Shown: positions 2,501 to 29,300 of the stretch, one piece after another | How the letters are laid out: the number at the start of each line of letters is the position of its first letter | Position numbering within the stretch: position 1 is the stretch's first letter | Virus record (IMG/VR): IMGVR_UViG_3300030333_006032 | Coordinates: 1-29,377 of that record | Source: a virus | Length of the DNA: 29,377 nt | Direction: 5' to 3' (one strand) | Translations under genes and position numbers: made by a program | The notes under the pieces: model-generated | The model's database searches: none | What the model was told of the DNA's origin: nothing | Seen by the model: the letters and a program-made list of their open reading frames with translations, nothing else

Positions 2501-4431
2501 TGGACTTCCCTCCAAGTTTTACCAATAGAAACTTCAGCCAAAGAGGGAATATCACCCAACCATTTGGCCTCTGCTTCTTCCATTACTTGTTTTAGTACGG
2601 CGGCCCATTCATCTGCTGTTTCTTCACGTACAAGTAGCAAGATTTCGTCATGAACTGCTGCGGCAATTCGAACTGTATCTTCTCCTGCATTCTTAACCTT
2701 GGGCCATAAATTCCCCAGTGCACACTTAAGAATCGCAGCACCCGCACCCTGGATCGGTGTATTACATCGGACTGTAACTTTGTTTAAATCTCCCTTTAGG
2801 AAACGGCGCATTTTTGAAACAGGGATACGTACTTCAGCCCATTCATCATGTTCTGTTTTTTGAGATAACAACTGATTCTCCACTTGCCAAGCTTTTATGC
2901 CGTCATAAGTAGATAACCAGTCTCCTCTTATTTTTCGTGCTTCTTCTTCTGTCATTGTTATTCCATTTCCGCCTGCATAATTACGAAGACCTTCCCAACC
3001 AGCACCATATAAAAGACCGAAATTAGCTGACTTAGCTATTTGTCTATCACATCCCATTGCTTCTGCTGTGTAGGTGTGTAAGTCCTCTCCAGCAGCAAAA
3101 ACCTCCTTCATCTTTACGTCATTCGCAAGTGCCGCCGCCAATCTCAGTTCCATTTGACTGAAGTCAGCATCCACAAGTAAGTAACCTTCTGGAGCCTCAA
3201 CACATTGTCTAAATGAAGCATCTCTAGGTATCTGTTGATTATTTGGTTTGATACAACTCATCCGACCTGTATCTGCCCCAAGTTGCATATATGACGCTCG
3301 GACGTATCCATCAATATCCATTTTTTCCTGGATAGAAGTAATCATTTGTCTCCTCTTTTCAGTTCTCTTCCATGTGAGGTATTTTTGGACTACCTCATGG
3401 TCAGCAGCGAATCCCCTAAGCGCTTGCCGTGAGGCGCTGGGCTTTCCGTCAGCTCCCGTAGGAGTGAAGCCCAGCACTGCTGTGAATTTATCGAGTAACT
3501 GCTTAGGACTATTGATATTGAAACCCTTGTACTTTTTAGTCCCTAAACGGATGGACCCCTCATCTTTGGAACGGAGATTAAACGGAGCCACATCACGCAT
3601 TTCTTTTAACTCAGATAAATCGTTTAGCCAACGATTCCGATCAACTGGATCGTGCCCCATTTCAGACAATTTATGTTCTAAGAGTGCAATCTTTGCGTCA
3701 CCTTCTCTAGGAAGTTTGTGTTCTTCAGGCAGAGCTATATCAAGTTCCCTTAAAAACTCTGTACCCATTTCCTTAGCGTCATATTCATAATCAACACGGC
3801 ACTGTTCTAAGGCTTTTGGATTCCAGGGAAGCCCTGTTCTCCACATCTGAGCGAGAGCTGGTATCGCCCTGCACTCCAACGCATAAGCAATGTTGAGATT
3901 TCCTATAAGAAGTTTTTTAGTTAGTAATACATCTAGCTCTAATAAAGCTTCTACATCTCTAGCTGCATAAATGAGTTGATCTTCACTAAGTTTTTCAGCA
4001 CTCCAATCTGAAAGTTGTTGTTCCTTAGATAGATCTATGTTCAAATGCCTTCTCATAAGATCACTCAGACCGTGCTTCATCCCTGGTATCCCGTTAGACA
4101 GAAGACGGCTAGCAAGCATTGTGCAGCCAATTTTTCCACGGGGATTAATAGCGTGTTCTTGTAACCAGGCAATATCGAATACTGCGTTATGCGCTAGCCA
4201 AAAACGTTCACCATTTTCAAAGAAGAGATCAAGGGTTTCCCAATCCTGCTCTTCTAATTTGAAACAATCAATGATGACTATTGTTTCGTCAACTAAGGAA
4301 CCTAATTGAATAAGTCTAAGTTTCCCTATCTCAGGCTGAAGCTGGAGCGTTTCAGTATCAAAGGCAATACTGATCGATGTATTGAGCTTATGGAGATACT
4401 CAATACCGTAGTATATTTTGAAGTTAGTCAT
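2497..4431 (-). CDS. polA: Family A DNA polymerase with 3'-5' exonuclease
   Basis: A 644-residue replicative polymerase. The proofreading domain occupies about 1-190, with the DEDDy set: D25-T-E27, D86 (NAVFDIAWL) and Y155-x3-D159. The polymerase domain follows: motif A at 418-432 (VDADFSQMELRL, D421/E428), O-helix R463, K467, F471 and Y475 with the spacing of E. coli R754, K758, F762 and Y766, and motif C H594-D595-E596. The 5' nuclease domain of bacterial Pol I is absent, as in T7-type phage enzymes. All catalytic residues are present. It lies in the same operon as the primase-helicase, and ATG 4431 overlaps the preceding stop, so stoichiometry is coupled. Confidence 0.96.
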   Translation of the reverse strand: MTNFKIYYGIEYLHKLNTSISIAFDTETLQLQPEIGKLRLIQLGSLVDETIVIIDCFKLEEQDWETLDLFFENGERFWLAHNAVFDIAWLQEHAINPRGKIGCTMLASRLLSNGIPGMKHGLSDLMRRHLNIDLSKEQQLSDWSAEKLSEDQLIYAARDVEALLELDVLLTKKLLIGNLNIAYALECRAIPALAQMWRTGLPWNPKALEQCRVDYEYDAKEMGTEFLRELDIALPEEHKLPREGDAKIALLEHKLSEMGHDPVDRNRWLNDLSELKEMRDVAPFNLRSKDEGSIRLGTKKYKGFNINSPKQLLDKFTAVLGFTPTGADGKPSASRQALRGFAADHEVVQKYLTWKRTEKRRQMITSIQEKMDIDGYVRASYMQLGADTGRMSCIKPNNQQIPRDASFRQCVEAPEGYLLVDADFSQMELRLAAALANDVKMKEVFAAGEDLHTYTAEAMGCDRQIAKSANFGLLYGAGWEGLRNYAGGNGITMTEEEARKIRGDWLSTYDGIKAWQVENQLLSQKTEHDEWAEVRIPVSKMRRFLKGDLNKVTVRCNTPIQGAGAAILKCALGNLWPKVKNAGEDTVRIAAAVHDEILLLVREETADEWAAVLKQVMEEAEAKWLGDIPSLAEVSIGKTWREVH

Positions 4432-4579
4432 TGGCTTTAAGGCTCTCTATATAATTTTGGTTAAGTACATGACCTGCATATGCGCTCGCAGAGCAACCTA
4501 GTTCTTTAGCTTTTTCCTCTATGTGTTTAAGGGTTAAAGCCCAAGGCGTTACCTGCATTCTTTTATTTTTTGTAGGCAT
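4424..4579 (-). CDS. Small RHH-like protein before polymerase
   Basis: A 51-residue protein from ATG 4579; an in-frame start at 4609 lies deeper inside the upstream gene. The N-terminus is basic (PTKNKRMQV), followed by a strand-like segment and two helices (LKHIEEKAKELG, then SASAYAGHVLNQN). This fits a short ribbon-helix-helix. It could be a DNA-binding regulator of the replication operon. It overlaps both neighbours by a few bases, so it is translated in series. The assignment is by pattern only. Confidence 0.5.
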   Translation of the reverse strand: MPTKNKRMQVTPWALTLKHIEEKAKELGCSASAYAGHVLNQNYIESLKAND

Positions 4580-4778
4580 TGAAATCACCCCCATGATCAA
4601 CTCCGACATATAAAGCAGAGTTAGGCCCGTATTTTTCTATAAGTTCAGGCCAGGTTTTAAAAATCTTGGCTTTGTTGTCCGCATCAGCGGCTAAAGCAGC
4701 ACCCGCCAAGCGGTTCATAAAACCACCGCCATATGTAATGGCTGTCTGGAGCGTCCAGTACGTTTCGTGCTGATTCAT
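4563..4778 (-). CDS. Hypothetical protein
   Basis: A 71-residue protein with a Gly/Ala-rich N-terminal half (ITYGGGFMNRLAGAALAADA) and an aromatic C-terminal half ending in DFNAYKK. No transmembrane helix or known motif. ATG 4778 overlaps the TGA of the upstream gene (ATGA). The gene contains an interrupted palindrome that includes one CTGGAGCG motif (4746-4753). Function not recognised; context suggests a minor replication-operon product. Confidence 0.6.
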   Translation of the reverse strand: MNQHETYWTLQTAITYGGGFMNRLAGAALAADADNKAKIFKTWPELIEKYGPNSALYVGVDHGGDFNAYKK

Positions 4779-4951
4779 TGATAACCCTCCTCATAGGCAT
4801 CTAACTCATTTTCGAGAAGCCCGATAACTTCGTCCAAGATATCTGATGTCTGTGGAAGTAGGTGTGCATCAATTTGATGCCTTTCTTCTTCACGCTTTCG
4901 CATGAGAATGAAGTCCTTGAGCATCAGCTCAAGCTTTTTGTATTCATTCAT
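4775..4951 (-). CDS. Small acidic helical hypothetical protein
   Basis: A 58-residue protein. The N-terminal half is amphipathic (KKLELMLKDFILMRKREEER) and the C-terminal half is acidic (SDILDEVIGLLENELDAYEE). Probably all helical, possibly dimeric. It starts at ATG 4951 and ends in TGA overlapping the next ATG. The 50-bp gap upstream holds promoter-like and operator-like repeats, so this may begin an internal transcript. Function unknown. Confidence 0.6.
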   Translation of the reverse strand: MNEYKKLELMLKDFILMRKREEERHQIDAHLLPQTSDILDEVIGLLENELDAYEEGYQ

Positions 4952-4969
4952 GAATTGGTCTTTTTTGGT

Positions 4970-5020
4970 TGGGGATGTACCCCAGTTACTCTATTAGTGT
5001 ACTACAGAGTAGTGTATTTA
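4970..5020 (-). promoter_or_regulatory. Putative internal promoter/operator in replication operon
   Basis: TGGGG-ATGTA-CCCCA (4969-4983) is a 5-bp-arm inverted repeat. Next to it, TGTACTAC, AGA and GTAGTGTA (about 4998-5016) form a second inverted arrangement. On the - strand this gives two TACACT -10-like boxes. It lies directly upstream of the gene starting at 4951, in the only sizeable gap of the operon besides its head. A control point is inferred, not proven. Confidence 0.35.
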
Positions 5021-5262
5021 GACAACTCTGGAAACATTTCTACATCAACCCTAGTGATGATAGAAACATCAATCCCCATTTCTAAAGCCGCTGTCGCTTC
5101 ATTATCGAAAGTAACTAAACCCAAGGCATCTGCTGGGTAATTTATTTGTTCCACAGCTAAGGGCTTCCCATCTTCGGCATAAGTGGTGTACCTAACAGAA
5201 GCGGCTGGACCACCTTTGTATGGAACTTCATAAACTGCCAATTGAGTGCTTTTATGGTTCAT
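5002..5262 (-). CDS. Hypothetical protein after primase-helicase
   Basis: An 86-residue protein from ATG 5262, whose ATG overlaps the primase TGA (ATGA). The sequence is beta-strand-rich (VYEVPYKGG, SVRYTTYAEDG) and then mixed, with no membrane segment or motif that I recognise. Tight coupling suggests an accessory to the replication enzymes. The promoter-like gap lies just downstream. Confidence 0.6.
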   Translation of the reverse strand: MNHKSTQLAVYEVPYKGGPAASVRYTTYAEDGKPLAVEQINYPADALGLVTFDNEATAALEMGIDVSIITRVDVEMFPELSKYTTL

Positions 5263-7625
5263 GTAGTCCAAAAGGCATCCGCTTCATTCTTCAATCTAGT
5301 CAACTCCCCATCTGTTCTTTCGTTCTCACGCGCGCGGGGATATTTCTCAAACGTCCCATTCATAGCACTTTCCTCATCACCACTGGGATCTGGCTTGGGA
5401 CAAGGGGGTGGGACGGAGGCTTCTGTACCAGGGGTGGGACAAATTGACTGTGTCTCAGGGGGCTGTCCCGTACCAGATTCCTCTTCATTACTAGCTTTTA
5501 CTGGGGTGGGACGACTATCTACAACCTCTCCACGCGCGAGGACTGCTTTATATATGTTTCCTTTTGGAGAGTGTTTGACTTCAATCAATCCTCTCTTTTC
5601 TAAACGCTGGAGCGACTTTCTAATAGCCTCTACTTTTCCACCAACAAGAGGATCAGAATTTAAATCAGACCTGGTTCGTTCATTTGGGTGAACAACCCTC
5701 AACCTGTGAAGTACTCGATCAATAATTCCAGCAGGTGAAGAATCCTCTTGATCTATTTCTGGGGTGTAATCACTGACGCTAAAACTCAGGTCATCTTCCA
5801 TCCTCATAATGAGGGAAGTACCAGATCTACCGCTTCTGGATTTTTCCACTTTGATAATTCGAGATTGTGTACCTACTGTTTCCAACTGTTTTTCCGAAGG
5901 CATCTTTAACGCCCAGGTCTCATCCACCGCATCACGAATTGCACTGGTCCCACGGAAACCACCCGTCTTATTCGCATGGTGAATCAGGAGAATTGTTGTG
6001 GCTGGAAACAGAACACCGTTATTTCGTGTCAACCAATAAAGGGGAGTGGCAAAGTCAGATTTGTTCTCATCAAATGCCCTTCCACCACTACAACCAATCA
6101 GAGAGTCAATCACCACAAGACTCGGCTTGATCTTGTTCATCAAATTGACAAACTGGGCATAACGTTGGAGCGACCAATCAGTTTGTATATGCGTATTCTT
6201 TCCAATTGGGAAGTCCACTTCTTCCAATTGCTCTTTCAACTGGATAAGTGGTTGGTCGCCATTCAAGAGAAGAACTGGTCCTTTTTTAACAGGAACAGGT
6301 TTACCTCGAACGATAAAGGGTTGACCCGTCGCTATATGTTTTGCGATTGCCCAAGCACTCATCGATTTACCATCACCACCTGCTCCATAAATAAGAACAA
6401 CCGAGGGAGTAGGAAGTACATCAGGAATCAAATAGTCCCTTTTACCCTCCATACCCATTAGGTCTTTTATGCTCATCAATCCAGTTGCACCCTCATATTG
6501 AATCTGATCAACAATGAGTTTTTCAAGTGCAACTTGATCCCTATAACCAGCCTGGAGCGCAAGAGAATTAAGTCTGTAATTCATCTCTGCGGGATTGTCT
6601 AGTTCTAGTATTGTTTTTGCTTGTTTAATCACCTCCACAAATGGGAGTGTCGATGTACGAATTTCCTGTACTTGACGTGCCTCCGCCTTCTCAATAATTG
6701 ACTTGCTGGACTCTTGAAATCGCGCCCTCTTCGGATCTTCTTGGTCCGCTAACCAAATAAGAGTTCCTAGACCGATTCCTCCTTGCTTGAAAGATCCCCA
6801 AGGTTCTTCACAAGGATTTTTATCGCCTTCCCACTCATCTGCATACTCAGGATCTTCACCAGACCAAGCAGACCAAAGAGTTAAACCAAGATCGTTAGGC
6901 AGTTCCGAGTGGATCGCCATCCCTATTTGAATCCAGTGATCCCTACTTCCTGCTCCTTGATGGGGGATAACGTTTAGACACTCTTGAATAATTTGAGCGA
7001 TTTCCTCTTCTGTTCTGTCTGATAAATCAAGTCCCTTTCTATTTTTTACAAAACCCTTTCCATCTCCAGCTTTTTGCACCTTCATTTCGGCTAAAAGCCA
7101 ATCCGGTGCCACAGGGATACTATCCAAATCCCCTTTAAAGCCATAAGTACCTTCTTCGGATACTTTTCCGCCTGGGTACTCACCGAAAATGACTCCCTGT
7201 CTGCCCCACAGGAGTTCGTAACAGCCTCCAGTGGCTTCACTTAGTCCATGCCCTTGAACTTCACCCCATAACTCTTCTGGAACGTAGAAGACATATTTCG
7301 CTGCGTTTCTTTTGGTACTTGTAATAACTGGAGCACCTTTTAGAGAATCTCCCCACTTTTTCTTGAGAGCAGAAAGGTTCCTATCGCAGTCAAGAATGAC
7401 CACACCATTTCCACGAATACCTGTGAAGAGGCCAACAGCTCCAAGGCTGGAGTTTCTTTCTAATTCAAGAGCAACATCCGCAGGTTTGAACTTTCTCTGG
7501 AACGCTGCTTCTAATGGATTTTTACCTGTTGCTTCTCTTCCTGAAAGCATCTTTGCGCCCTTCTTATAAATGGGTGCATAGACCAAATTATCTGGAAGCT
7601 GTTTAACGAAATCAATGAGTTGCAT
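5259..7625 (-). CDS. Primase-polymerase / RepA-type helicase fusion
   Basis: A 788-residue protein from ATG 7625; TTG 7670 in frame would add 15 residues. The N-terminal archaeo-eukaryotic primase-like domain has the catalytic pair at D79/D81 (VVILDCDRN). A PriCT-like linker region at about 205-295 includes HWIQIGMAIHSE and WEGDKN. The C-terminal P-loop ATPase of the RepA/DnaB-like class has Walker A at about 414-421 (GAGGDGKS) and Walker B around 503-507 (LVVIDS). A winged-helix-like segment follows (IRKSLQRLEKRGLIEVKHSP), then a disordered Pro-rich tail. It should make primers and unwind the fork for the polymerase in the same operon. First gene of the leftward operon. Confidence 0.9.
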   Translation of the reverse strand: MQLIDFVKQLPDNLVYAPIYKKGAKMLSGREATGKNPLEAAFQRKFKPADVALELERNSSLGAVGLFTGIRGNGVVILDCDRNLSALKKKWGDSLKGAPVITSTKRNAAKYVFYVPEELWGEVQGHGLSEATGGCYELLWGRQGVIFGEYPGGKVSEEGTYGFKGDLDSIPVAPDWLLAEMKVQKAGDGKGFVKNRKGLDLSDRTEEEIAQIIQECLNVIPHQGAGSRDHWIQIGMAIHSELPNDLGLTLWSAWSGEDPEYADEWEGDKNPCEEPWGSFKQGGIGLGTLIWLADQEDPKRARFQESSKSIIEKAEARQVQEIRTSTLPFVEVIKQAKTILELDNPAEMNYRLNSLALQAGYRDQVALEKLIVDQIQYEGATGLMSIKDLMGMEGKRDYLIPDVLPTPSVVLIYGAGGDGKSMSAWAIAKHIATGQPFIVRGKPVPVKKGPVLLLNGDQPLIQLKEQLEEVDFPIGKNTHIQTDWSLQRYAQFVNLMNKIKPSLVVIDSLIGCSGGRAFDENKSDFATPLYWLTRNNGVLFPATTILLIHHANKTGGFRGTSAIRDAVDETWALKMPSEKQLETVGTQSRIIKVEKSRSGRSGTSLIMRMEDDLSFSVSDYTPEIDQEDSSPAGIIDRVLHRLRVVHPNERTRSDLNSDPLVGGKVEAIRKSLQRLEKRGLIEVKHSPKGNIYKAVLARGEVVDSRPTPVKASNEEESGTGQPPETQSICPTPGTEASVPPPCPKPDPSGDEESAMNGTFEKYPRARENERTDGELTRLKNEADAFWTT

Positions 7626-7663
7626 TGTGCTACTATTCCTTTGGGTAATCGGACTCGTTTTAA

Positions 7664-7695
7664 CCCTCAAGGCTATTCCCGCCTTGGGGGTTTTT
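7664..7695 (+). terminator. Strong rho-independent terminator between divergent operons
   Basis: CCCTCAAGGC (7664-7673) pairs with GCCTTGGGGG (7681-7690), a 10-bp stem with one G-T wobble and a 7-nt loop, followed by TTTTT (7691-7695). It acts on the + strand, upstream of the rightward promoter. It would block rightward antisense transcripts coming out of the primase gene. On the - strand it lies near the primase leader, so it may also affect that leader. Confidence 0.75.
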
Positions 7696-7708
7696 ACATT
7701 GTAACCTG

Positions 7709-7737
7709 TTGCACGGATTCTGACACACTGCTACAGT
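7709..7737 (+). promoter_or_regulatory. Sigma70-type promoter of the rightward replication operon
   Basis: TTGCAC (7709-7714), a 17-bp spacer and TACAGT (7732-7737) fit the -35/-10 consensus well. The start point would be near 7744, giving about 30 nt of leader before ATG 7776. It sits just after the terminator, so rightward transcription of the 7776-9986 operon begins here. Confidence 0.6.
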
Positions 7738-7775
7738 AGTTAGGCACAGAGCACTCGCTCATCGCAATTTCTACT

Positions 7776-8396
7776 ATGCCTTTTCTATCAAAAGCAGGCT
7801 CTTCAGCCGTTGCTGTCAAGTCAACTGGAGGTTACTTGAATCCTGGAAGAATCCCTACAGGTTCAAGTGCTCGATTCGCTCTACTTTCTGATCAGCCTCT
7901 TGAATACTGGGAAGTATGGCTTCAAGACAGTGAGGGAAAACTTAATGACAGGGGAAAGATTATTTCCACTCCTTGCAGATTCACCACAGAACCAACTCCT
8001 GAAGATATTGAAGCTGAGTTAGGAACTCAATGGGTTCGTAGACCTAACTTCAATAATGATGGACCTGGACCAGTCTTATTTAATCTTGCTGCTCCTATTT
8101 ACAGCTACGACAATAAGTGTGTTCAAGTTTTTGCTTGTGATAAAGCTTCCATTAATCGTGAGTTGGATGCTATTAGCAACATGATTGAAAACGGGGATGA
8201 CTATGAAAGCATCCTTGATGTTGTTTTTGTCATAGATAAGGAGGGTTCAGGTCTAAACACTGAATATAAAGTTCGTATCTTCCCCAAGAAGAAGAAGGAC
8301 GAAGCGGTGATTGAAGAAGCCTGGGAAACAGCACAGGCTGACGGATTTGACATTTCCCGTCTACTTTCAGGAGGAAATCCTTTCAAAGAAAACTAA
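7776..8396 (+). CDS. Hypothetical replication-operon protein (ssDNA-binding candidate)
   Basis: A 206-residue soluble protein, the first gene of the rightward operon. The N-terminal half is beta-rich with several aromatics (YWEVWLQDSEGK, CRFTTEP, TQWVRRPNF). The C-terminal part contains VVFVIDKEGSGLNTEYKVRI and a charged KKKKDEAVIEEAWE helix before a short Gly-rich tail. Phage ssDNA-binding proteins often sit at this place beside polymerase and primase and have OB folds with aromatic residues, but the usual acidic C-terminal tail is missing. Single-strand binding is an inference from context. The TAA stop overlaps the next ATG. Confidence 0.6.
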   Translation: MPFLSKAGSSAVAVKSTGGYLNPGRIPTGSSARFALLSDQPLEYWEVWLQDSEGKLNDRGKIISTPCRFTTEPTPEDIEAELGTQWVRRPNFNNDGPGPVLFNLAAPIYSYDNKCVQVFACDKASINRELDAISNMIENGDDYESILDVVFVIDKEGSGLNTEYKVRIFPKKKKDEAVIEEAWETAQADGFDISRLLSGGNPFKEN

Positions 8397-8581
8397 TGTC
8401 ACATGTACCTGAACTAATCCAAACCACAAAGCTTGGTGGAACGGTTCATTCGTACAACTTGCCAGGAGGGAAGCGGGAATTTACTCGCTTCCTTGCCTGT
8501 TATTTAGGTTCCTGCAAGTTTTGCAATGACATGGAAGAAGCCATTGCTTATTTATCCACTGTTGAAGTTTTACCAGAATGA
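8396..8581 (+). CDS. Small Cys-containing hypothetical protein
   Basis: A 61-residue protein. The centre carries three Cys (CYLGSCKFC) inside a basic, aromatic context (GKREFTRFLA). A C-x4-C-x2-C arrangement could bind metal but lacks a fourth clear ligand. It overlaps the upstream stop (TAATG) and the downstream start (ATGA), so it is firmly inside the operon. Function unknown. It also resembles thioredoxin/glutaredoxin-like CxxC fragments only superficially. Confidence 0.6.
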   Translation: MSHVPELIQTTKLGGTVHSYNLPGGKREFTRFLACYLGSCKFCNDMEEAIAYLSTVEVLPE

Positions 8582-9084
8582 CCGTATCAAAACCTCTACC
8601 TTCTTTATCTCTTTTAGAGGAGCATTTTAAATACAATCCTGATACAGGTTTTGTGATAAATAAACATACAGGCAATATTATTCAGCGTTTAGATAGTAAG
8701 GGAAAGTATATACAGGTCGATTTCCTTAATGAAGTATGGCAATTACATAGATTTTGTTACTACTTGGGTACGAAGAAAAATCCTGGTTTACTCCAGGTAG
8801 ACCATAGGGACCAAGATAAAACTAATAATAAGTTAAGTAATTTACGTTTACTATCCAATGCCGAACAACAATTAAATACAAAGTTGAGGAGTGACTCTAA
8901 ATCTGGGTATAAAGGTGTAATTTTTGATAAAAAAGGTAATAAATGGAGAGCCTATATAACTTTTGAGAAGAAAAAGATCTTTGTGTACAGAGGAGATTCC
9001 TTAGACGAAGCTATAGCCGCTAGGAAAGCAGCAGAAAGAAAATATTACCCCCACCTATTCCCAGATCCGCCTAATGAGGTATAG
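8578..9084 (+). CDS. HNH endonuclease with C-terminal AP2 domain
   Basis: A 168-residue protein. The HNH core spans about 55-100: LHRFCYYLG, then VDHRDQDKTNNKLSNLRLLS, with the D-H pair, the central Asn and N-L-R in the usual places. The C-terminal AP2-type DNA-binding domain (about 110-158) runs from SGYKGVIFDKKGNKWRAYI to EAIAARKAAERKYY. This two-domain build is that of free-standing homing-type endonucleases common in phages. It is AT-richer in codon use than the flanking genes (many TTA, AAA and AAT codons), consistent with a mobile gene slotted into the operon. Its ATG overlaps the upstream stop (8578-8581). Confidence 0.88.
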   Translation: MTVSKPLPSLSLLEEHFKYNPDTGFVINKHTGNIIQRLDSKGKYIQVDFLNEVWQLHRFCYYLGTKKNPGLLQVDHRDQDKTNNKLSNLRLLSNAEQQLNTKLRSDSKSGYKGVIFDKKGNKWRAYITFEKKKIFVYRGDSLDEAIAARKAAERKYYPHLFPDPPNEV

Positions 9085-9089
9085 TAATT

Positions 9090-9986
9090 ATGGGAACGTG
9101 TATCTTAATGCCCACTAATGTAACGTTAGACGCACAGAACGCTCTAGCTGGTTTAAGAAAGTGGAAGCTGGTACGTGATGATTCCAATACGGAATTTCCC
9201 CATAGGGTTTATAGAGATGACAAAGGGAATGTTTATAGCTCTGTAACCCATATCCTTAACGAAACCGCCCCCAAAGAACAAAAAGATGCGCTGGAACGAT
9301 GGAGTAGTAGACCCAATTCTGCCCTGGAGCGTGATAATGCCTGTACAAGAGGGCATCTTGCTCACTCACATGCAGAGTATCTGCTCAAAACTTCAGCGAA
9401 ACTTAGTCGCCAAGTTGCGAACAAAAAAGGAACCTGGAGTACAACTGGGGATGGGCTGGAGCGATGCCCACCAAAAATCACCACATGGGCGTTACAAAAG
9501 TCAGTCAATTCAGCACCGAAGGTTGCGTGGTCAGCCAGTGGCTACGCCAGAGGCTTACGTGGATTTATCCTGGAACGAGTAAGTGCCATTCATGCTGTCG
9601 AATTTTCCATTCATTACACCCCCAAAACTGCCATTCACGGCAAGAAATCTGCCATTCATGGATTCGCTGGAACGTGTGATTGTCTTGTGGATGTTTATGA
9701 AAATGGGCATTCAACAGGACCATACATTTTGGATTGGAAGACCTCTCAAAATAAAAGATCAGAAAAAATGTACCGTCAATACTATGACCAATTGGGAGCC
9801 TACAGCCTTGGACTGGAGCGTCTTACGGGATTACAGGCAAAAGGTGGGATCATTGTCTGTGCCCGAAGATCAGGACCACCGGATGTAAAGGTGCTGGATC
9901 GTCTTGAGCTTATGGCGTCTGAAGATAGATTTAGAACTAGATTTTCTGAATATTTGGCAATGCTGGATCTCGGTGCCGCTGCCTAA
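9090..9986 (+). CDS. RecB/Cas4-like PD-(D/E)XK nuclease
   Basis: A 298-residue protein. Catalytic set of the PDDEXK family: H92/H94 and E96 (RGHLAHSHAEYLL), D197 (FAGTCDCLVDV), D215-W-K217 (YILDWKTSQ), and the Q-Y motif at 234-238 (YYDQLGAYS). It should be a Mg-dependent exonuclease acting on DNA ends during replication or recombination. Between E96 and D197 lies an unusual segment with repeated LER and four A/S-I-H units, encoded by DNA repeats described separately. GAGG lies about 10 nt before ATG 9090; ATG 9108 is an alternative. It overlaps the convergent gene by 4 bp. Confidence 0.85.
   Translation: MGTCILMPTNVTLDAQNALAGLRKWKLVRDDSNTEFPHRVYRDDKGNVYSSVTHILNETAPKEQKDALERWSSRPNSALERDNACTRGHLAHSHAEYLLKTSAKLSRQVANKKGTWSTTGDGLERCPPKITTWALQKSVNSAPKVAWSASGYARGLRGFILERVSAIHAVEFSIHYTPKTAIHGKKSAIHGFAGTCDCLVDVYENGHSTGPYILDWKTSQNKRSEKMYRQYYDQLGAYSLGLERLTGLQAKGGIIVCARRSGPPDVKVLDRLELMASEDRFRTRFSEYLAMLDLGAAA
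9291..9820 (+). repeat. Cluster of six CTGGARCG octamers in nuclease gene
   Basis: CTGGAACG or CTGGAGCG begins at 9291, 9324, 9456, 9570, 9667 and 9813. Five copies are in the gene's reading frame as Leu-Glu-Arg; the one at 9667 is in another frame. Ten further copies lie elsewhere on the + strand (4342, 4746, 5607, 6552, 7277, 7497, 10749, 21276, 23716, 28028) and one on the - strand (2031-2038). Confidence 0.7.
9584..9659 (+). repeat. Four iteron-like TGCCATTCAY repeats
   Basis: TGCCATTCAT (9584-9593), TTCCATTCAT (9605-9614), TGCCATTCAC (9629-9638) and TGCCATTCAT (9650-9659), with start-to-start spacing of 21, 24 and 21 bp, about two helix turns. All are in frame and encode an I-H dipeptide each time. 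The arrangement resembles origin iterons placed inside a replication gene, as in lambda O. Confidence 0.65.
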
Positions 9987-10595: not shown

Positions 10596-10943
10596 TTAGT
10601 TTTCCTCCTTTTTACAATTTTTTAGGCATCTTTTCCAGTCGAATAACTCATCTAAGGCTTCCATTTGTAGGCATTTGTCAGAAACCAGTGATGCCAAGGC
10701 TTTTAGGGCTGTTTCTGTTTTAGCTTCTGTGTCTGCGAGTAGTGCCGCCTGGAACGCCCTTTCTATTAGATCCTTTTTGCTGAATCTCTCTATTAGGTCT
10801 TTTTCGGTTTGCTCATACATGACGGCCAACATGGTCGCCGCTCTTCTGTTAAGCCGGTGCGTAACCAATACGGCAAGTTTTGCGAGGTCTGGAGTAGACA
10901 AGCAAGATTCCTCTATATGTTTTTCTAGGGTGGATAGTTTCAT
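10596..10943 (-). CDS. Hypothetical helical protein
   Basis: A 115-residue protein predicted to be almost wholly helical, with alternating charged and Ala/Leu segments. It contains a short internal repeat, KDLIERF and KDLIERA nine residues apart. Its ATG overlaps the TGA of the upstream acidic gene (ATGA). It contains one CTGGAACG motif on the + strand (10749-10756). Function unknown. Confidence 0.6.
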   Translation of the reverse strand: MKLSTLEKHIEESCLSTPDLAKLAVLVTHRLNRRAATMLAVMYEQTEKDLIERFSKKDLIERAFQAALLADTEAKTETALKALASLVSDKCLQMEALDELFDWKRCLKNCKKEEN

Positions 10944-15926: not shown

Positions 15927-17375
15927 GTGACGTATGCCGTCCCAGGCAAAATCCGAACCCATCAAGTCAGTACAACTTTTCAAGGTGGTGCTGATAGCCC
16001 CTTCACTCGAACTAGAGCTGTTCTAGATCAGATGAAGGCATGGGAAATCATGAAAGCGGTAACGCTTGGGACGGAATACTTACGCGATAATTCTGAAGCC
16101 TTTTTACCTCTTGAACCTCGCGAAGATTATGAGGCTTATTTATCAAGAGTAAATCGAGCTGTATTTTCGCCTTATACGCAGCGTTTAATCCGGGCGGCTG
16201 CGGGTCTTGTTTTAAGGAAACCTATTTCTGTTATCGGAGATTCATATTGGGTTGACGTTTTTAACAAAGATGTCGATGGTTGTGGTTCAGACCTAGACGA
16301 ATATGCTCGAAGACACCTTATATGTGCTCTTACTTACGGGCATAGTCATACCCTGGTGGATTTTCCTGCTCCGACAGGGGCAAGGTCATTAGCTGAAGAA
16401 AGAGCAGAAAACCGTCGTCCTTATTGGATTGAGGTAGATCCAACCAATGTTTATGGATGGAGATTAGATAGAGAAGTTAATTATGGGAATCTCATCCAAG
16501 TTCGTATAGCAGAAAAGGCAGTTGTACCTGACGGAGAATTTGGAGAGACCGTATTTAATCAAGTTCGAGTTATCGAACCAGGTCAATACCGTGTTTATAG
16601 GCAAAAAGAGAGTGACTCAACTCTTTACGGCACAGAAACAGGTTTTTCAGGTCAATTTACCGCTCCTATAACACCAAAAGACTATGAATTAATTGATTCC
16701 GGTGAATTTAGTTTGGGAGAAGTACCTCTAGTGACCGTTTACACAAATAAAACGGACACACTGACCAGCAAACCGCCGCTTTTGGACATCGCGCACTTAA
16801 ATTTGTGCCATTTTCAGCGTCAAGCCGACTTAATACACAGCCTTCATGTTGCTTCTCAGCCGATGTTGGTTCTTGAGGGTTGGGATGATCAGACAAAAGA
16901 TATGACCGTCAGCGTTAATTATGCAATGGCGACTCAACCTGGCAATAAGGTGTATTACGTCGAGCCAGCATCAACAGCATTTGAAGCTCAAGCAGCAGAG
17001 ATCCAAGAATTAGAAAAACAGATGGCATCTTTAGGTATAAGTACTCTATCTCAACAGAAATTTGTTGCAGAATCAGCAGATGCAAGACGTTTAGACCGTG
17101 TAGACACAAATTCGATGTTGTCTTTAGTAGCGATGGAAATGGAGCAAAAACTCCAAAAATCGTTTAATTTATCTGCGCAATACCTCGGAATGGAACCCCC
17201 AGAAATTAAAATCAACAAAGATTTCGATATTGATCGTCTAATTGGTCAAGATGTGACCGCTTTAACCTCATTATTCGAGAATGGTGTATTAGGCAGAGAC
17301 GAGTTCCGACAGATTCTTGTACAGGGTGAAGTTCTACCTTCTGCAAACGAATTCGACGACTCTTCGGGGTCTTGA
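15927..17375 (+). CDS. Portal protein (DUF4055-like)
   Basis: A 482-residue protein from GTG 15927. The N-terminal sequence GTEYLRDNSEAFLPLEPREDY, followed by RVNRAVFSPYTQRLIRAAAG and LVLRKPISV, is the pattern of DUF4055-type portals. It forms the dodecameric ring at one vertex through which DNA passes. The C-terminal half contains a long helix (EIQELEKQMASLGISTLSQQ) typical of the portal stem and crown. It follows the tail tube gene and precedes the scaffold and capsid genes, as expected for a portal. Confidence 0.9.
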   Translation: MTYAVPGKIRTHQVSTTFQGGADSPFTRTRAVLDQMKAWEIMKAVTLGTEYLRDNSEAFLPLEPREDYEAYLSRVNRAVFSPYTQRLIRAAAGLVLRKPISVIGDSYWVDVFNKDVDGCGSDLDEYARRHLICALTYGHSHTLVDFPAPTGARSLAEERAENRRPYWIEVDPTNVYGWRLDREVNYGNLIQVRIAEKAVVPDGEFGETVFNQVRVIEPGQYRVYRQKESDSTLYGTETGFSGQFTAPITPKDYELIDSGEFSLGEVPLVTVYTNKTDTLTSKPPLLDIAHLNLCHFQRQADLIHSLHVASQPMLVLEGWDDQTKDMTVSVNYAMATQPGNKVYYVEPASTAFEAQAAEIQELEKQMASLGISTLSQQKFVAESADARRLDRVDTNSMLSLVAMEMEQKLQKSFNLSAQYLGMEPPEIKINKDFDIDRLIGQDVTALTSLFENGVLGRDEFRQILVQGEVLPSANEFDDSSGS

Positions 17376-19596: not shown

Positions 19597-20127
19597 GTGG
19601 CTGCAACTATTACCGCTACGTTGAAGGGAGAAACTTCAAATAGCTATGTGACTTTGGCAGAAGCCAACACATATTTTGAAACCGCTCCAGAAGAATCAAC
19701 CTGGGACGACAAATCTGATGACCAAAAGAATCGAGCATTAATATCTGCTTGCCGTTGGATAGACAGTCTTAATTTTTTAGGAGATCGGTGTGATAACGAT
19801 CAAGCATTGAAATGGCCTCGAAATAACTATCATGTAGATAATGTGGAATTAGTTTGTACCGCTATTCCGAATGGAATTAAATACGCTCAATATGAATTAG
19901 CAAGAGCTTTAGCTAATGACACAGATGCAATAACTGGTAATAAAGGTACTGACGGAACATATGAAGAAGTGAAACTAGGTGACATTGAAGTGAAGTACAA
20001 CACCGATAGTCAGGGCGTTGGAACTATCAACAATGTTTTTGACGTTTATCCGTGGCTTCAGTCCTATCTTGGTGCTTATTGCCTTGGTGGTTCTGGTGCT
20101 TACCAAGTTCGCTTAGTGAGGGGTTAA
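19597..20127 (+). CDS. Head-tail connector (DnaT-like family)
   Basis: A 176-residue protein from GTG 19597. The N-terminal pattern SNSYVTLAEANTYFETAPEE, then ALISACRWIDSLNFLGDRCD and ALKWPRNN is typical of the phage family labelled putative DnaT-like, in fact connector/adaptor proteins that dock on the portal. The C-terminal part is beta-rich. It follows the capsid gene and is directly adjacent to the head-closure gene (TAA then ATG), which fits the neck assembly order. Confidence 0.8.
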   Translation: MAATITATLKGETSNSYVTLAEANTYFETAPEESTWDDKSDDQKNRALISACRWIDSLNFLGDRCDNDQALKWPRNNYHVDNVELVCTAIPNGIKYAQYELARALANDTDAITGNKGTDGTYEEVKLGDIEVKYNTDSQGVGTINNVFDVYPWLQSYLGAYCLGGSGAYQVRLVRG

Positions 20128-21044: not shown

Positions 21045-21469
21045 CACTTGTAAATACTCGTGCTGCTTTCGAAAAAGCAGTAACCGATTCCGTTGCTTCC
21101 GCAGATGCAACCGTGAAGATGGTTTATGACAACACTCCTTTCATAACTCCAAGTAAGGGAATTAAATACATCGGAATGTCAGTCGATTTCAGTCGATCCA
21201 CGATTCAAAATCAAGGAGCTGCTTCTGACTATTACGTTGGAGTGATCCAATGCAATGTCTATGTACCCAAAGATGCTGGAACGTCTGTTCTGTCTTCCAT
21301 CAGTGAAGCAGTTATAGATGGTCTTACTTCGGTAAACGCTAGTGATTACACCGATACATTTAGTTGTAAGCCTCGCGTTACAGATATTGTTGGGCCTTCG
21401 CCGATTGAATTAGATGATGCTCCTCATTTCTTAGGAGTTATTTCTTGCCAGTTCTCAGCAAACGCTTAG
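21041..21469 (+). CDS. Tail terminator protein
   Basis: A 142-residue protein of the size of lambda gpU/DUF4128 terminators. Helix-strand pattern: N-terminal helix TRAAFEKAVTDSV, strands MSVDFSRSTIQNQ and YYVGVIQCNVYVP, then a helix (VLSSISEAVIDGL) and a final strand HFLGVISCQFSANA. It would cap the tail tube and set its length with the tape measure. It contains one CTGGAACG motif (21276-21283). It lies between the neck gene and the chaperone pair, as in lambda. Confidence 0.75.
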   Translation: MTLVNTRAAFEKAVTDSVASADATVKMVYDNTPFITPSKGIKYIGMSVDFSRSTIQNQGAASDYYVGVIQCNVYVPKDAGTSVLSSISEAVIDGLTSVNASDYTDTFSCKPRVTDIVGPSPIELDDAPHFLGVISCQFSANA

Positions 21470-21475: not shown

Positions 21476-21500
21476 ATTATTAACCTAGTTAAAGATTCTT

Positions 21501-22041: not shown

Positions 22042-22075
22042 ACTAAAGAATAGTTTTTCGAGGGTGCGGTAAAAA

Positions 22076-25000
22076 GTGGCTGACTATACCCGCCTGATTG
22101 AATTAAAAGTAAATGATCGTCAGATAAAACAGGCTACTGATCGTTTATTTAAGAGTTTAGATCGAATAGAAAAGAAGCTAGATGTAATTGCAGGTAAGGG
22201 ATTTGATGGTGTTGGAGCTAGTGCGAATAAGGCATCTAAAAACGTTGGCAAATTAGATGCTGCTTTTACAAAAGCTAGCCAGAAGACCAGGGACTTCATA
22301 CTAAAAACTGGATTATTAACAAGTGGTTTAGTTGCTTCAGCTTCCTATTTAGAGGCAAGCGCAAGAAAGGCGAAGTTTTTTGCGGACCAGTTAGCCTATT
22401 TCCCTGGGCTAGTAACTAAAGCTAGTGGAGCACTCAACACCTTCGCTGCTTCACATATAGGACTAACAGCGGCTGTTGGAGGAGGTGTAGCTGCATATAC
22501 TTTACTGGGATCAAGTATAAATAAGTTAATACCTCAAACATTCAAACTAGGGAAAGCATTTAGGCAATTTACTGATTCCATTCCAGGGAAGATAGCTGAA
22601 GTATCTGGTGCATTTGATAAGTTAAATCAGAAGATAGATTATACAACTAGTGGATTAATTGAGTTAGCTAAGGGAGAAGGATTAAAGGGATTAAAGTCTT
22701 TAATGTCCACGGCTGTTTTAGAGCAAGAGAAGCTTTTATCAAGTAATTCTTTATATTTAGCACAGGTAATTAAAGTAAGAGAAGTAGAATCTGCGGTTAA
22801 CCAAGAATTAATAGCTAGGCAGAGAATATTAGATGGAATTGTTCAAAAAGAGGGCATAACTGCTGGTCCAGGTTTATCGGGATTACAGAAAACTTTAAGA
22901 GAACAAGAAGCCATCCTTAACAGGATGTTGACGACTGAAGAAGGATTTAGTGCTCAAGTAGCAAAAGTAAAATCAATAGAGGAATTAATAAACGAAGAGT
23001 TAAAAGAGAGAGATAGGTTAATGGGCAAGATAAATATTAAGGAAGAGAAATCTGTAAGTCTTCTTCAGCGAGCAAGGAATGCTGCGAGTGGAGCTGGTGC
23101 GGCAGCCCAAAAATTCAGACCAGGAGGAAGAGGCTTTGGTGTTACTGGATTTGAGCGTAGAGGGCTGCAAGTTGGAGCAGCCGCCGCAGGAACGATGGGA
23201 GTTTCTGGGTACTTTGCTGCTCAGAATTCCATAGCAGCACAGGTCAATAAATTATCGAGCATCCCGATGCCTTTTAATCTTCCAGATTTAAATACTGGGA
23301 TTGAAATGGCCACTCAGAGTGCCAATGGTTTCCTCGGAGTATTAAATCAAATAGGGCAACAGTTAGGGCATGTTCAACCTGAGTATCTAGCTATAGCTGC
23401 TGCTGCCTATATGGCTTTCGGAGGCGATATAAGGAAAACAGTAGAGAATGTATTTAAAGCAGGTAAAGAGACAAGAAAGACAACAGCATCCTTAATCAAC
23501 TTTGGTAAAGCAGCATTAGATACGGGTAGATTTTTGAAGGGAATAAATATGGACTTTAAACTGACAAGTGCGGGGGCTAAACAACTAGGAGTAGATATAG
23601 ATACGGTTGCTAATGATATGGATAGGATGACTAGAAAGCGTGCGCTTGCTGCGGCGACTTTACAAAAAGGTGTATCTATAGGATCAGGAAATATACAACC
23701 AAGCGGTTTCGGTGCCTGGAGCGCTGCGGTAGATAAAAAAGCTGCTCAGGATAATGTACTTAAACAGAGGCAACTAGTAAGGCTTGGGTATCAGAGAGAA
23801 GTCCAACGCACACGAGGACTAAGTATTGACGAAAGAATAAACAGAGTTCTCGCCCAAAGAGGGAAAATAATGACAGCTAATGGGAAGATAGAGGATATAC
23901 AGAATAAGAAAAAAGGATTATTCCAAGGCGGGGCAAGAGGTGCAGTTAGTAGTGCAATGATTGGTGGTGGCTTCCCACTACTCTTTGGCCAAGGAGGAGC
24001 TTCTGCTATTGGTGGTGGTATTGGTGGTGCGCTTGGCGGAGCAATTGGCGGAGGGTTTGGTTTTGCGGCTTCTGTTGTTGGTACAGCAGCAGGTCAATGG
24101 GTTGAAAATGCAGACAAGTTCAATAGAGAAATAGCCAGAGCAAACGGTTCAATGTCCCGCATTGGGGATGGTGCTGGTTTCAGTGCCAAGCAAATAGAGA
24201 AGATGGCTAAACATATGAAGATAACGAAAGAAGAAGCTCTTACAGTTGCAACAACATTTAAGAGATTTGGAGCAGAAAATGCTGAGTTATTTGGTCAATT
24301 CTTTGGTGGAGATGCTTCAGGCTTAATGGCTGTTGGGAGAATACAGGATCAAGCAAGTGCGTTAGAAGCCATAAATGTACTTTCTAAAGATCTTAGTTTC
24401 CAAGAACAAGAAAGATTAATCGCAGCGTTAGAAACAACTTCTGCTGCAGAGATGCAAGTGAAACTACAAGGTTTACTACTCGAAATACAGTTCGAAGAGA
24501 ATAAGTCTTTAATTAAACAGGTAGGTCTTAAAGAAAAAATTTGGTATTGGACTAAGAGAACTTTTGCCCTGCTCATGGCTGATGATGCAGGAAGTCAAAA
24601 GGCTTTAGCAGGAGAATCTCCAGCGGAGAGGGTAACTAGAGAACTTAAAGAATTAGAAGAGGCTTATGCAAGGATAGAATCTAGGATTGGTGGGCTATTA
24701 GCAAATATAGGTGCAGTAGATAAAGCTTCTAAGCGTGCTACTGAAACCATTCCAGGCAAGATTGAGGAGATAGAGAGAAACCTTAAGAAGTTAACAAGTA
24801 AGACACATCAAATAATTTCAGCAGCACAAGCTATTGGAAGTGCTTTTAAAGATTCATTTAAAGGAATTATTGACGGAAGCATGAGTGCAGGAGAAGCCTT
24901 CGCTGCCTTCACGAGGAAAATTGCAAACTCCTTCTTAGATATGGCTGCTGAAATGGCAGCGCAGCAATTAACTCTGAGCATCTTGAAGATGTTTGCTGGC

Positions 25001-25489: not shown

Positions 25490-25989
25490 TGGAAGCCGCA
25501 TTTGGTAACTTTCTTACGTTAAAAGCAGGAAACGATGTTAGATATCGGTTCCAAAATTTTTTCATTGGAGAATCAGTTACATATAGTAGTAATGATTATT
25601 CGTTTTTAGCCTTTGGATTTAGCGGAGTAACTTTAAATAGGTCAGGTGATGGAACGGAAGCGTCACTAGTTTTTCCTGTTAATGATATTAGTAAGGCTTG
25701 GGCAATTGATGCGATGGAGTTTTACGATTCGAGTGGATCACGAAAAGCACCTTGGATTGCACATGTTCAAGTTTTGCTTTTAGATCCAGACGATAAAACA
25801 TCATTTGCTACTACTAACCCCTTGTATCAATACTATGGGCAGATTGCAGGTGGCAGTTGGGATGAGGTGACTGTAAGTGTTACATTAAGTACTGTAATTG
25901 ATGCGGTAGGAAGTGATGTTCCTATGAGACGATTAACTCAATCTTTAGTTGGTTCGTTACCTACAACTAGCGGTGTCAGCTTACGGTGA
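25489..25989 (+). CDS. Minor/distal tail protein
   Basis: A 166-residue beta-rich protein immediately after the tape measure (TAATG overlap). Strands such as VTYSSNDYSFLAFGFSG and EASLVFPVNDISKAWAID precede a domain with WIAHVQVLLLDPDDKT and VTVSVTLSTVIDAVGSDVPM. The position corresponds to lambda gpM/gpL, which join the tube to the tip. The C-terminus (RRLTQSLVGSLPTT) is typical of such proteins. No Cys cluster of the gpL iron-sulfur type is present. Overlaps the next gene by 17-41 bp. Confidence 0.75.
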   Translation: MEAAFGNFLTLKAGNDVRYRFQNFFIGESVTYSSNDYSFLAFGFSGVTLNRSGDGTEASLVFPVNDISKAWAIDAMEFYDSSGSRKAPWIAHVQVLLLDPDDKTSFATTNPLYQYYGQIAGGSWDEVTVSVTLSTVIDAVGSDVPMRRLTQSLVGSLPTTSGVSLR

Positions 25990-26353
25990 TATCGCCAGCC
26001 TCATCGGTATGCCCTATCGATTGGGCGCTGATGGGAGCGACGGCTCCATAGACTGCATACATCTCTGCTATACCGCCTTCGATAGGCTCGGAATCCAAGC
26101 ACCACCTTTCGACGATGGATGGTATAGAGCTAGTAGAAGTCATATCTTGAGAGAACTGTACGGAAGTTTCGTCAGAGTTCATGAGCCTCGGTACACTGAA
26201 GGGGACTTACTACTTATACCTGAAGAGACATGGGTGTTCGCGGTGATATGGGAGACAGGCGTTCTATACGCGAGCGCAAGACAGGGGAAAGTAGCGTGGT
26301 CTACGGTGCAACACTTTACGAAGCTCCACTGCTTCCGTTCGAGAAAGAATTAA
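25973..26353 (+). CDS. NlpC/P60-like tail tip protein (gpK-like), perhaps inactive
   Basis: A 126-residue protein if started at GTG 25973 (TTG 25949 also possible; neither has a Shine-Dalgarno). MPYRLGADGSDGSIDCIHLC is the N-terminal NlpC/P60 motif with its catalytic Cys (D-C-I-H). The later motif that normally carries the catalytic His (H-V-G-I-Y) reads TWVFAVIWETGVLYAS here, with Phe or Trp in its place. The order TMP, minor tail, K-like, I/J matches lambda. Codon use is GC-richer than that of the two flanking genes. It overlaps the following start. Confidence 0.75.
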   Translation: MSAYGDIASLIGMPYRLGADGSDGSIDCIHLCYTAFDRLGIQAPPFDDGWYRASRSHILRELYGSFVRVHEPRYTEGDLLLIPEETWVFAVIWETGVLYASARQGKVAWSTVQHFTKLHCFRSRKN

Positions 26354-29300
26354 TAAAAACAATTGGATTAAGTGAGGAAGAATATAGATATTTTGTTGCT
26401 GAAGTAAGGAAGAAAGGAAGAATTAGGCCCGCTGGTTATGAATTAGTCCCTGACATCAAAGCTGAATTAACAACGGCTGCGGGAGGATTAAATGTTTTAG
26501 GTCAAATTCTAGTAGGAATTACGTTAACGGCTGTCTCGATGTTGTTGCAGCCAAAACCAAAAGCTCCTGGTGCAATAGATCGTAGAACTTTAGACAGCAT
26601 TACAGGTAGAAGTCGATTCTCTCCAACTAGCGGATTTGAAAGTCAGGCTGATTTAGCAGATTATGGGACACCTATCCCTATTGTTTTCGGACGTTATACA
26701 GGAATAGAGGGGGGAATGTTTATTCAGCCTCCAATGGTTTGGTCTCGGATGTTTAGTTATGGCTTAGAACAAGCAGTTAAATTAATGTTTGTTGTTGGAG
26801 AACAGGGATATGAAAGCAACGACACAACAGATGGGATTGTTGTTCCTGATTTAGCTGGAATTTATTTAGGAAATACTCCTTTAGATGGAATTTATGATCA
26901 TACCTTTGCGTTCTATTGGAAGAACAATACAACTAAGTCAGGGTGGTCAAGAATTAGGGCGGGGAATAAAAGATATGGAACGATTGGCGGCCCTGCAACT
27001 GGCGATCCAGAAGTAGGAGAAAGTGGAGACAAACTAGAAGATGCTTTTGATTGCCCTGTTTCTTATGACAGCGATCCTCGTGGTTTCTGTTCAGTTCATA
27101 GCCCCAGCAGTAATGCAGAATTTGGGTGCTATGAACCTATTCACAATGCAACCCCTTATAAACTTCAATGGCAAGTTGTAGGAAACCCAGAAGATCAAGG
27201 TGATGGGCACCCAGGCACACTAAGAAAACAAAGCTGGGAAAGATTAAAAATATCAGGTGATAGGAATGGTGCTAGTGGCTATACAGCAGGACAAGGTGGA
27301 GGTGGCTGGCAACGCAAATTAAGAAGTTATGGGATGGGTGGAACGGGAAGATCCTATTCAAGAAGGATGGGCATTATAAGAATTAATGGAGCAGCACCAA
27401 CTGCTTCTACAGGAATAGAAGAAAAAGACATTAGTGTGGGAGATAAAATTATTTTTCGCATCTCTTCTAATAAAATACCGGAAACTCTTTATGGAGGAGC
27501 TAATGACGACGAGAGAGTAAAAGTAGATGACATAAATAGTGCAGTACAAGAAGGGAACTTAGTAGCAGAAGATGCTTTGCAATTAGGTGAAACTTATATG
27601 ATTGGAAGTGTAATTTTTAAAGTAATTTCAAGAAGCAAAACTTTTTGGAATCCAGATGATGAAAACTCTGGTAATCAGGATGTAACTTTAGAATGTATTG
27701 AAGTTCCTAATTCTGCTCTTAAAAGAATAGGGTTTGTTGATGAAGTAAAAATTCTAGATCCAGCTTTGGGTTATGTAACAGATATGGGAAATATAGATGA
27801 TCCCTCGACCCCTGAACATGATGAACATAAACCTTCACCAGGTATTGCTTTTTATCCTTTAATGAAAGTAGCAAGAGGAGTTATTAGAAATACTCGTTCT
27901 TGTGAAGTAACAGAGTTTGGGATTAGGTCGAAAGTTTTTCAGAGGTTGTCGGGTCTCGCGAATTTCCAATCCATACCCCAACCTGCGGAGCTAGTAAATC
28001 TTGATAGAGAAGCCGTCGATGTTACCGCTGGAACGAATAGCTCTTACATAAAGCGTTCGTCTGCTTTCTTTCTTGAATTAAGAAAACTAGGTGAAACCAG
28101 TTGGAATGTTGTTGATAAAACTTTTGTTGTAGTAGGGAATAGACCAATAGATCAATATAATTTCATTCGGATATTCCAACCTAAAGGTACTTATGAATTT
28201 AGATTTACGCCTTTAAGTGGAGCAGCGATGAATGATTTAGGTTTAGAGAGGGATATATGGATTTTGGGGAATAAGAACCAAGATAGCAGTACTTCTTTGG
28301 CAGAAGATATAACTGTGGGAGGAGAATCTTTTAGATTAAATGCTGTTGGTAGAGAGTCTAAAATTGCAGACATTAGGTATAACAAAGAGTTCTTAAATAG
28401 TTATTCAGCTACAACAACTGTAACGACAAAAAGCTATCCTTCATCAATAGGAATTAAACATCGAATACCTGAGATTGAATCCCAAGAAAATAAGATAACC
28501 TCTGTTGAAAAGGTGGGAATCTATTCAGAGCCGACAAACATTAATGGTGGGGTCATGGGTGGCTTTGCTTGGGAGTTATTTGGCGCGGTACCTTCTGGTT
28601 GGCCTGAAGGAGCAGAGAAGAAAGTCACTAAAGAGCATAGGCTTGCAGGGTCAAGAAATATAGAAATTGAATACACAGCCGTTAAATATTCATTGCCCAG
28701 TGCAATGCAAACTGCAACAGGAGAAACTCATTCTTGGAATATTATTCGTTATGACGTTAGAAGTTCTAGTTGGGGTTTTGACTACGGATCAGAATTCACT
28801 GTGACAGAAGATTTAGATGGCAGTAATCCTTTTAGAAACACTCAAAATAGCCAAGGGACAATGACAAAGGCGGGTTTAAGATTAAGGGTAGCGGGTGCTA
28901 ATTTTTATAATAGACATAGAGGCAGGCAACAAGCTTATTTATATGAAGCTTTAGGTAGAGCCGATAACTATGAACCTGGTAAATCAGTTACAGCTCATTA
29001 TAATATTACTGAAGACAGTAAGACGGTAAGACTTAAAATAACAGCGACAGCAAGGCTTTGGTCTGATAGATGGGGAACTACTCCACATTGGTCAACTTTT
29101 AAGCATTACTGGGGTGAACCTAAGTTTGAGGCAGTACCAGCAAGTCCCACGACTACAACTTGGAACACTGGTGATACTTTTACTCATTTATTTGAAGTAG
29201 AGAATCTGGCTAATCCCGCTCTTACAAATTATTATGCAGAGTGGAGGTCGGATAGTGATTACAAGCAATATGTTGGGATTACTTACATTGTTGAAGCAAC

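Follow-up and report, generated by a model that had tools for sequence, protein, structure and literature searches.

A strand-polar octamer of a cyanosiphovirus-type phage fragment is one form of a phage-specific motif that probably marks starts of DNA replication

Why should a single octamer, CTGGARCG, recur almost only on one strand of a viral genome, through genes that read in either direction? The octamer lies in the IMG/VR virus record IMGVR_UViG_3300030333_006032, analyzed over its 29,377 nucleotides (hereafter, the window), where an earlier note made from the letters alone had singled it out. We find that CTGGARCG is the form most often taken in the window by a broader phage-specific motif, M1 (5'-YTGGADCGK-3'), and that M1 is probably the start sequence used by the replication enzyme of the phage when it copies DNA.

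The window carries 16 copies of CTGGARCG on the plus strand, each exactly where the earlier note had placed it, and two on the minus strand (2031-2038 and 19683-19690), the second of which had been missed. A third-order Markov model predicts 0.36 and 0.52 copies of the two octamer forms on the plus strand and 0.44 and 0.29 on the minus strand, that is, 0.9 and 0.7, close to the one per strand estimated previously. By this model, no other octamer of the window is as over-represented as CTGGAACG and CTGGAGCG (z = 12.7 and 10.4). When synonymous codons were shuffled inside each gene, with proteins and codon usage fixed, 2.5 ± 1.2 plus-strand copies remained, and none of 500 trials reached 16; the minus-strand count matched expectation. 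The same shuffles predicted 0.84 copies in the exonuclease gene, where six were seen, and 0.16 in the primase gene, where four were seen. The over-representation claimed at the outset is thus borne out.

The copies are unevenly distributed: 13 of the 16 fall within 4.3-10.8 kb, and the exonuclease gene is the part of the window densest in M1. The wider motif TGGANCG occurs 21 times on the plus strand and never on the minus strand between 2.5 and 14 kb, and six and five times, respectively, in the structural half (14-29 kb), which is near background. The impression that G never follows the octamer was a small-sample effect, as the next base family-wide is T in 45% of cases, G in 23%, A in 16% and C in 15%.

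A broader motif that goes with the replication module

The window has a head module of cyanosiphovirus type. Its portal is 36% identical to that of S-2L, and its capsid is 34%, 33% and 28% identical to those of S-2L, KBS-S-2A and MED4-184, respectively. It belongs to a group of marine (ocean) phages of cyanobacteria that is uncultured. Relatives are numerous in IMG/VR; a collection of 50,697 phage records held no close relative of its primase, exonuclease or single-stranded-DNA-binding-protein (SSB)-like gene, so that replication in this clade is unstudied. We found no report of M1 in the literature.

For comparison, contigs were oriented so that TerL reads forward. The top polar words over the IMG/VR relatives were forms of TGG[A/T]NCG, specifically TGGAGCG and TGGAACG in G+C-rich relatives and TGGATCG in A+T-rich members. 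Alignment of 1,459 dispersed sites gave the M1 consensus, with C avoided at the N position of TGGANCG. The polarity described for the window recurred in all 18 relative records tested, with balanced controls. M1 was enriched and polar in every examined IMG/VR contig with homologues of the primase-helicase, SSB-like protein or exonuclease, even where the exonuclease was only 37-40% identical. TerL relatives (81-86% identity) without homologues of these three genes in the examined sequence showed no M1 signal (plus/minus counts of 2/0 in L034, 1/0 in L068, 10/9 in AG418 and 1/6 in L030). The DNA polymerase gene is irrelevant, as G+C-rich relatives carry M1 although they lack a homologue of that gene. 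Among other cyanosiphoviruses, S-2L (29/28) and MED4-184 (3/1) had no M1 signal, and KBS-S-2A had a weak excess only (22 on the plus strand and 10 on the minus strand, versus approximately 11 and 9 expected). A packaging signal is not supported, because TerL relatives (84-86% identical) with another replication module lack M1.

Individual copies come and go. Over 72 exonuclease genes, in and around which M1 is densest, the density was steady near 3.8 sites per gene. In contrast, the proportion of shared positions fell from 82% at >90% identity to 12% at 45-60% and 4% at <45%. M1 copies are therefore held by selection, not inheritance: density is kept while positions turn over.

These data bear on two explanations in which M1 is not a signal of the phage. 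That it is a by-product of a Leu-Glu-Arg (LER) peptide, codon preference or common descent draws on the LER frame encoded by five of the six copies in the window's exonuclease gene and by 129 of 274 copies family-wide. Against it stand the codon shuffles, the sites that lie antisense to leftward genes, the 103 of 274 copies in another frame and the turnover of positions; we give it almost no credence, in line with the earlier note's own dismissal of codon and peptide preference. Scarcely more credible is a Chi or other chromosomal signal of the cyanobacterial host, carried for protection. Such a signal would suit the genome-wide polarity in the phages, and M1 resembles Chi, which is GCTGGTGG. 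However, the host-genome comparison that the earlier note had proposed revealed no enrichment: the observed/expected ratio for TGGADCG was 1.01 in Prochlorococcus (340 kb sampled) and 0.92, without chromosome polarity, in a Synechococcus-type genome of 2.4 Mb on a single contig (820 kb sampled). Across 41 genomes from the family, the strands were balanced, with no consistent excess over a reversed-pattern control. M1 is thus neither enriched nor polar in the host-type genomes tested, which argues against host Chi; host KOPS was rejected on the same evidence. Based on this result and the module dependence, we consider M1 to be the phage's own signal, which goes with its replication module. In this it differs from the Chi sites of RecBCD/AddAB.

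Picocyanobacteria are the likely hosts of the phage family, since a 41-kb relative (TerL 81% identical) lies inside the Prochlorococcus single-cell genome AG-418-M08. This relative lacks M1 and carries another replication module, so for members with M1 a picocyanobacterial host is putative. Its contig, which shares the structural module of the window and differs in the replication/recombination module, constitutes a natural module swap; by eye, the substituted module includes an annealing protein resembling ERF and a different PD-(D/E)XK nuclease.

The primase 3' end and the replication protein

In the relatives, minus-strand M1 sites cluster at the primase gene's 3' end and plus-strand sites follow immediately. 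In L107, for example, sites at 1698, 1760, 1859 and 1923 on the minus strand are followed by sites at 1943, 2015, 2055, 2067 and 2119 on the plus strand. Relative to primase codon 738, minus-strand M1 numbered 157 versus 3.9 expected (40-fold) at -300 to +50 bp, with 51 of 51 genomes deviating in this direction, and plus-strand M1 numbered 146 versus 5.9 expected (25-fold) at +50 to +350 bp, in 56 of 56 genomes. As the genomes are related, these genome counts are not independent trials, and the ratios to expectation and the turnover of sites carry the argument. To the right of the switch, up to +9 kb, plus-strand M1 was enriched 4- to 9-fold and minus-strand M1 stood at 0.4- to 0.9-fold, such that dispersed sites there are almost only on the plus strand. 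To the left, both orientations were enriched, the minus-strand sites most within 1 kb (8-fold).

Spacing within the array is mixed, at approximately 12-100 bp with many intervals near 60. The core between its arms consists of repeats that differ from genome to genome and occur in both orientations: GTGGGACA in the window, GGGGACA in G008, GTGTCCAGGG in L107 and TTTTGTCAAAA in L097. The core folds better than shuffled sequences in the relatives (mean z of -3.8, with 64% below -3, versus -0.6 to 0 at three control positions). In the window, the two right-arm sites lie at offsets near those of the nearest relatives (Table 1), and no tandem iterons were found in 5200-5720. This locus is best read as an origin-like array whose copies all point outward and would lie on the lagging-strand template. 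Boxes of CACGCGCG at 5327-5337 and 5531-5541 flank the candidate origin core, and similar CGCGCG boxes occur in G008 and L107.

The gene in which the array lies encodes a protein that models as an archaeo-eukaryotic primase-polymerase (prim-pol), joined in one chain with an RSF1010-RepA-like helicase and a candidate winged helix. Pfam recognized PriCT_2 (1.1e-14) and AAA_25 (4.8e-17). An AlphaFold2 model of residues 1-345 had a mean confidence score (pLDDT) of 78.6, and its best Foldseek matches were pRN1 ORF904 (E = 7.9e-6), NrS-1 PrimPol and RSF1010 RepB'. The PDB entries 9aam, 3m1m and 1rni were matched with E values of 7.9e-6, 8.3e-5 and 1.2e-4, respectively. A profile search of the PDB with the first half of the protein gave no sequence-level match. 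Kinship with known prim-pols, including the presence of a prim-pol domain as in pRN1-type replicons, accordingly rests on the fold. The C-terminal helix-helix-helix-hairpin had a pLDDT of approximately 78-84 and matched winged-helix proteins with a root-mean-square deviation of 2-3 Å over 68 columns (E = 0.02-0.05). No superfamily 3 (SF3) helicase domain was found, with Pfam giving AAA_25 and the fold matching RSF1010 RepA/RecA-like proteins.

How the motif may act

Several known systems offer precedents. Plasmid pRN1 requires a stem-loop 3' of orf904, and phage BIP-1 of Bordetella was proposed to have a pRN1-like stem-loop 3' of its replication gene (PMC4234260). The window clade resembles pRN1 in its prim-pol fold, which matches pRN1 best, possibly in a C-terminal winged helix, and in a candidate origin that can form a stem-loop of fast-changing sequence where the gene of the replication protein ends (3'); judged by fold z, a large stem-loop at this position is present in most relatives. 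The window protein shares PriCT_2 with BIP-1 (PMC4234260). Unlike the SF3 helicase of pRN1, the window helicase is RecA/RepA-like, and in the window clade a fixed motif forms a divergent array on either side of the stem-loop and is also dispersed with polarity. Archaeo-eukaryotic prim-pols use short template words, namely GTG for ORF904 of pRN1 and 5'-TTTGGTTA-3' for NrS-1 PrimPol (PMC8718748). With NrS-1, the window clade shares the prim-pol fold, genes for a RecB-like nuclease and an SSB close by, and a word of approximately 8 nt with a TGG core, in the clade a putative recognition word, at a site just 3' of the primase gene. In the NrS-1 genome, TTTGGTTA occurs once, at 17198, approximately 150 bp beyond the end of the primase gene at 17051; the array of the window clade similarly lies at the primase 3' end. 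RSF1010/IncQ replicons have a RepB'-like primase fold, a RepA-like helicase and oppositely oriented single-strand initiation signals (ssiA and ssiB) at the origin (PMC4434180). They differ in having separate RepA, RepB and RepC, where the window clade has one fused protein, in ssi signals that are 40-nt hairpins, one per strand, and in 20-bp iterons, which were not seen in the window.

We favour, with somewhat better than even confidence, the reading that M1 is recognized by the phage's own prim-pol/helicase/winged-helix protein, that the array at the end of its gene is the origin and that the dispersed sites prime synthesis. M1 may be the template word of this prim-pol, with which it co-occurs. 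The fused protein would assemble where its own gene ends, on the array and the stem-loop, open them and prime at M1 on each exposed strand; the dispersed sites would favour lagging-strand priming or restart. For a fork moving rightward from the switch, the lagging-strand template would be the plus strand and, to the left, the minus strand. Because orientation flips at the switch, M1 near the origin would then lie on the lagging-strand template to either side, and the dispersed copies are most likely priming sites, as the plus strand is the lagging-strand template for the fork leaving the origin. The plus-strand excess around the genome may, speculatively, reflect rightward synthesis dominating later. 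Of the roles suggested earlier (Chi-like, priming, packaging or origin), the divergent array with its switch at the primase-helicase 3' end and the association with the replication module support origin and priming, but not host Chi or packaging. It is possible, at a little under an even chance, that this is a virus clade with a strand-specific priming code, in which one prim-pol-helicase uses one 8-9 nt word for both origin and lagging-strand priming and fork direction can be read from sequence. If true, M1 would allow origin and fork direction to be mapped from sequence alone and would define the template word of a new prim-pol, which could serve in primer-free amplification. It would also offer a natural, directly testable case of selection for priming sites and show an entire genome marked by the preferences of lagging-strand priming.

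Several observations weigh against the favoured reading. Plus-strand M1 is also enriched 3- to 6-fold left of the origin, so the fork picture is not simple. The window's own core did not fold significantly better than shuffles (z of -0.7 and -1.0), and its array is weak or degenerate compared with those of many relatives, with minus-strand sites at 5352 and 5469 interleaved with plus-strand sites. The model of residues 385-740, the helicase half, was of low confidence, its best matches being RSF1010 RepA (8.7e-7) and winged-helix proteins, and profile comparison of the window primase with that of NrS-1 was not significant. NrS-1 itself has a single copy of its word and no dispersed polar set. 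Finally, the primase, SSB-like and exonuclease genes are always found together, so M1 may instead act with another partner or in recombination, and orientation alone fails to separate priming from a phage Chi-like site.

Such a site, acting with the PD-(D/E)XK exonuclease and the SSB in recombination-dependent replication, would explain why M1 peaks at and around an exonuclease gene that belongs to its module, and Chi is likewise short, over-represented and oriented along the fork direction. A 25- to 40-fold divergent array within approximately 650 bp at the primase 3' end is unexpected for Chi, however, and no RecBCD/AddAB-like helicase-nuclease was recognized among the window genes scanned; we consider this reading improbable. 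Also unlikely, if less so, is that M1 acts as an iteron in duplex form, to which the replication protein binds through its winged helix, the dispersed copies being auxiliary sites for initiator binding or loading and not primer starts. Phage P4 alpha binds its origin repeats in this way (PMC4234260), and the clustered, divergent array sits at a gene whose product has a predicted winged helix, but the mixed spacing suits an iteron poorly and hundreds of dispersed copies in one orientation fit recognition of a single-stranded template more easily. Three further candidates were rejected: restriction avoidance, which should deplete a word and not enrich it; transcription sites of the stoperator type, as orientation does not follow transcription in leftward genes; and GC skew, as the plus orientation holds where skew is negative.

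Coordinates and other polar words

Table 1. Features of the window, with their positions, strands and supporting observations.
Feature	Position	Strand	Basis or remark
Candidate replication origin, divergent M1/TGGGACR array inside primase 3' end	5265..5690		Positional homologue of array with polarity switch in 51-56 relatives
Array site TGGGACG, M1-like	5352..5358	-	Array mapping
Inverted-repeat arm I1, partner 5464-5481	5385..5402	+	18 nt, 78% complementary
Core repeat TGGGACA	5396..5402	+	Repeat mapping
Core repeat TGGGACG	5409..5415	+	Repeat mapping
Core repeat TGGGACA	5435..5441	+	Repeat mapping
Inverted-repeat arm I1, partner 5385-5402	5464..5481	-	18 nt, 78% complementary
Array site TGGTACG	5469..5475	-	Array mapping
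Core repeat TGGGACG	5507..5513	+	Repeat mapping
CTGGAGCG, right-arm array site	5607..5614	+	Offset +151; +148 in G002, +157 in L101 and L104, +163 in L102
CTGGTTCG, right-arm array site	5671..5678	+	Offset +215; +212 in G002, +221 in L101
Fused replication protein	5259..7670	-	Predicted prim-pol ~aa 15-200, PriCT_2 helix bundle aa 228-308, RepA-like hexameric helicase ~aa 405-625, winged helix ~aa 640-710, low-complexity tail
SSB-like gene	7776..8396	+	PHROG 1607, 6.8e-6; co-occurrence; member of the module that M1 follows
PD-(D/E)XK exonuclease gene, module member	9090..9986	+	PHROG 298, 5.5e-21; Pfam PDDEXK_1, 2.7e-6
CTGGAACG	2031..2038	-	Octamer scan
CTGGAGCG	4342..4349	+	Octamer scan
CTGGAGCG	4746..4753	+	Octamer scan
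CTGGAGCG	6552..6559	+	Octamer scan
CTGGAACG	7277..7284	+	Octamer scan
CTGGAACG	7497..7504	+	Octamer scan
CTGGAACG, exonuclease gene	9291..9298	+	Octamer scan
CTGGAGCG, exonuclease gene	9324..9331	+	Octamer scan
CTGGAGCG, exonuclease gene	9456..9463	+	Octamer scan
CTGGAACG, exonuclease gene	9570..9577	+	Octamer scan
CTGGAACG, exonuclease gene	9667..9674	+	Octamer scan
CTGGAGCG, exonuclease gene	9813..9820	+	Octamer scan
CTGGAACG	10749..10756	+	Octamer scan
CTGGAGCG, absent from the earlier list	19683..19690	-	Octamer scan
CTGGAACG	21276..21283	+	Octamer scan
CTGGAGCG	23716..23723	+	Octamer scan
CTGGAACG	28028..28035	+	Octamer scan

An HNH endonuclease gene (8578-9084, plus strand; PHROG 99, 1.8e-43) sits between the SSB-like and exonuclease genes, and a small protein encoded at 1708-1989 on the minus strand has an NrdR-like zinc ribbon (Pfam PF22811, 7.9e-8). 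A second strongly polar word, M2 (GCCATTCAT), occurs on the plus strand of the window at 2605, 2839, 5356, 9586, 9607, 9652 and 13966. Pooled over relatives, its plus/minus counts were 36/0 and 71/1, concentrated in and near the exonuclease gene. Unlike M1, M2 is kept in TerL relatives without the M1 module (8/0 in L034, 11/0 in L068 and 11/1 in AG418), so it is tied to something family-wide, perhaps packaging. The word GAATTAA occurs 17 times on the plus strand of the window and not on the minus strand (3.7 expected), and AAGAATTA, possibly a ribosome-binding or promoter word, has plus/minus counts of 8/1 in the window and 7/1 in AG-345-A17.

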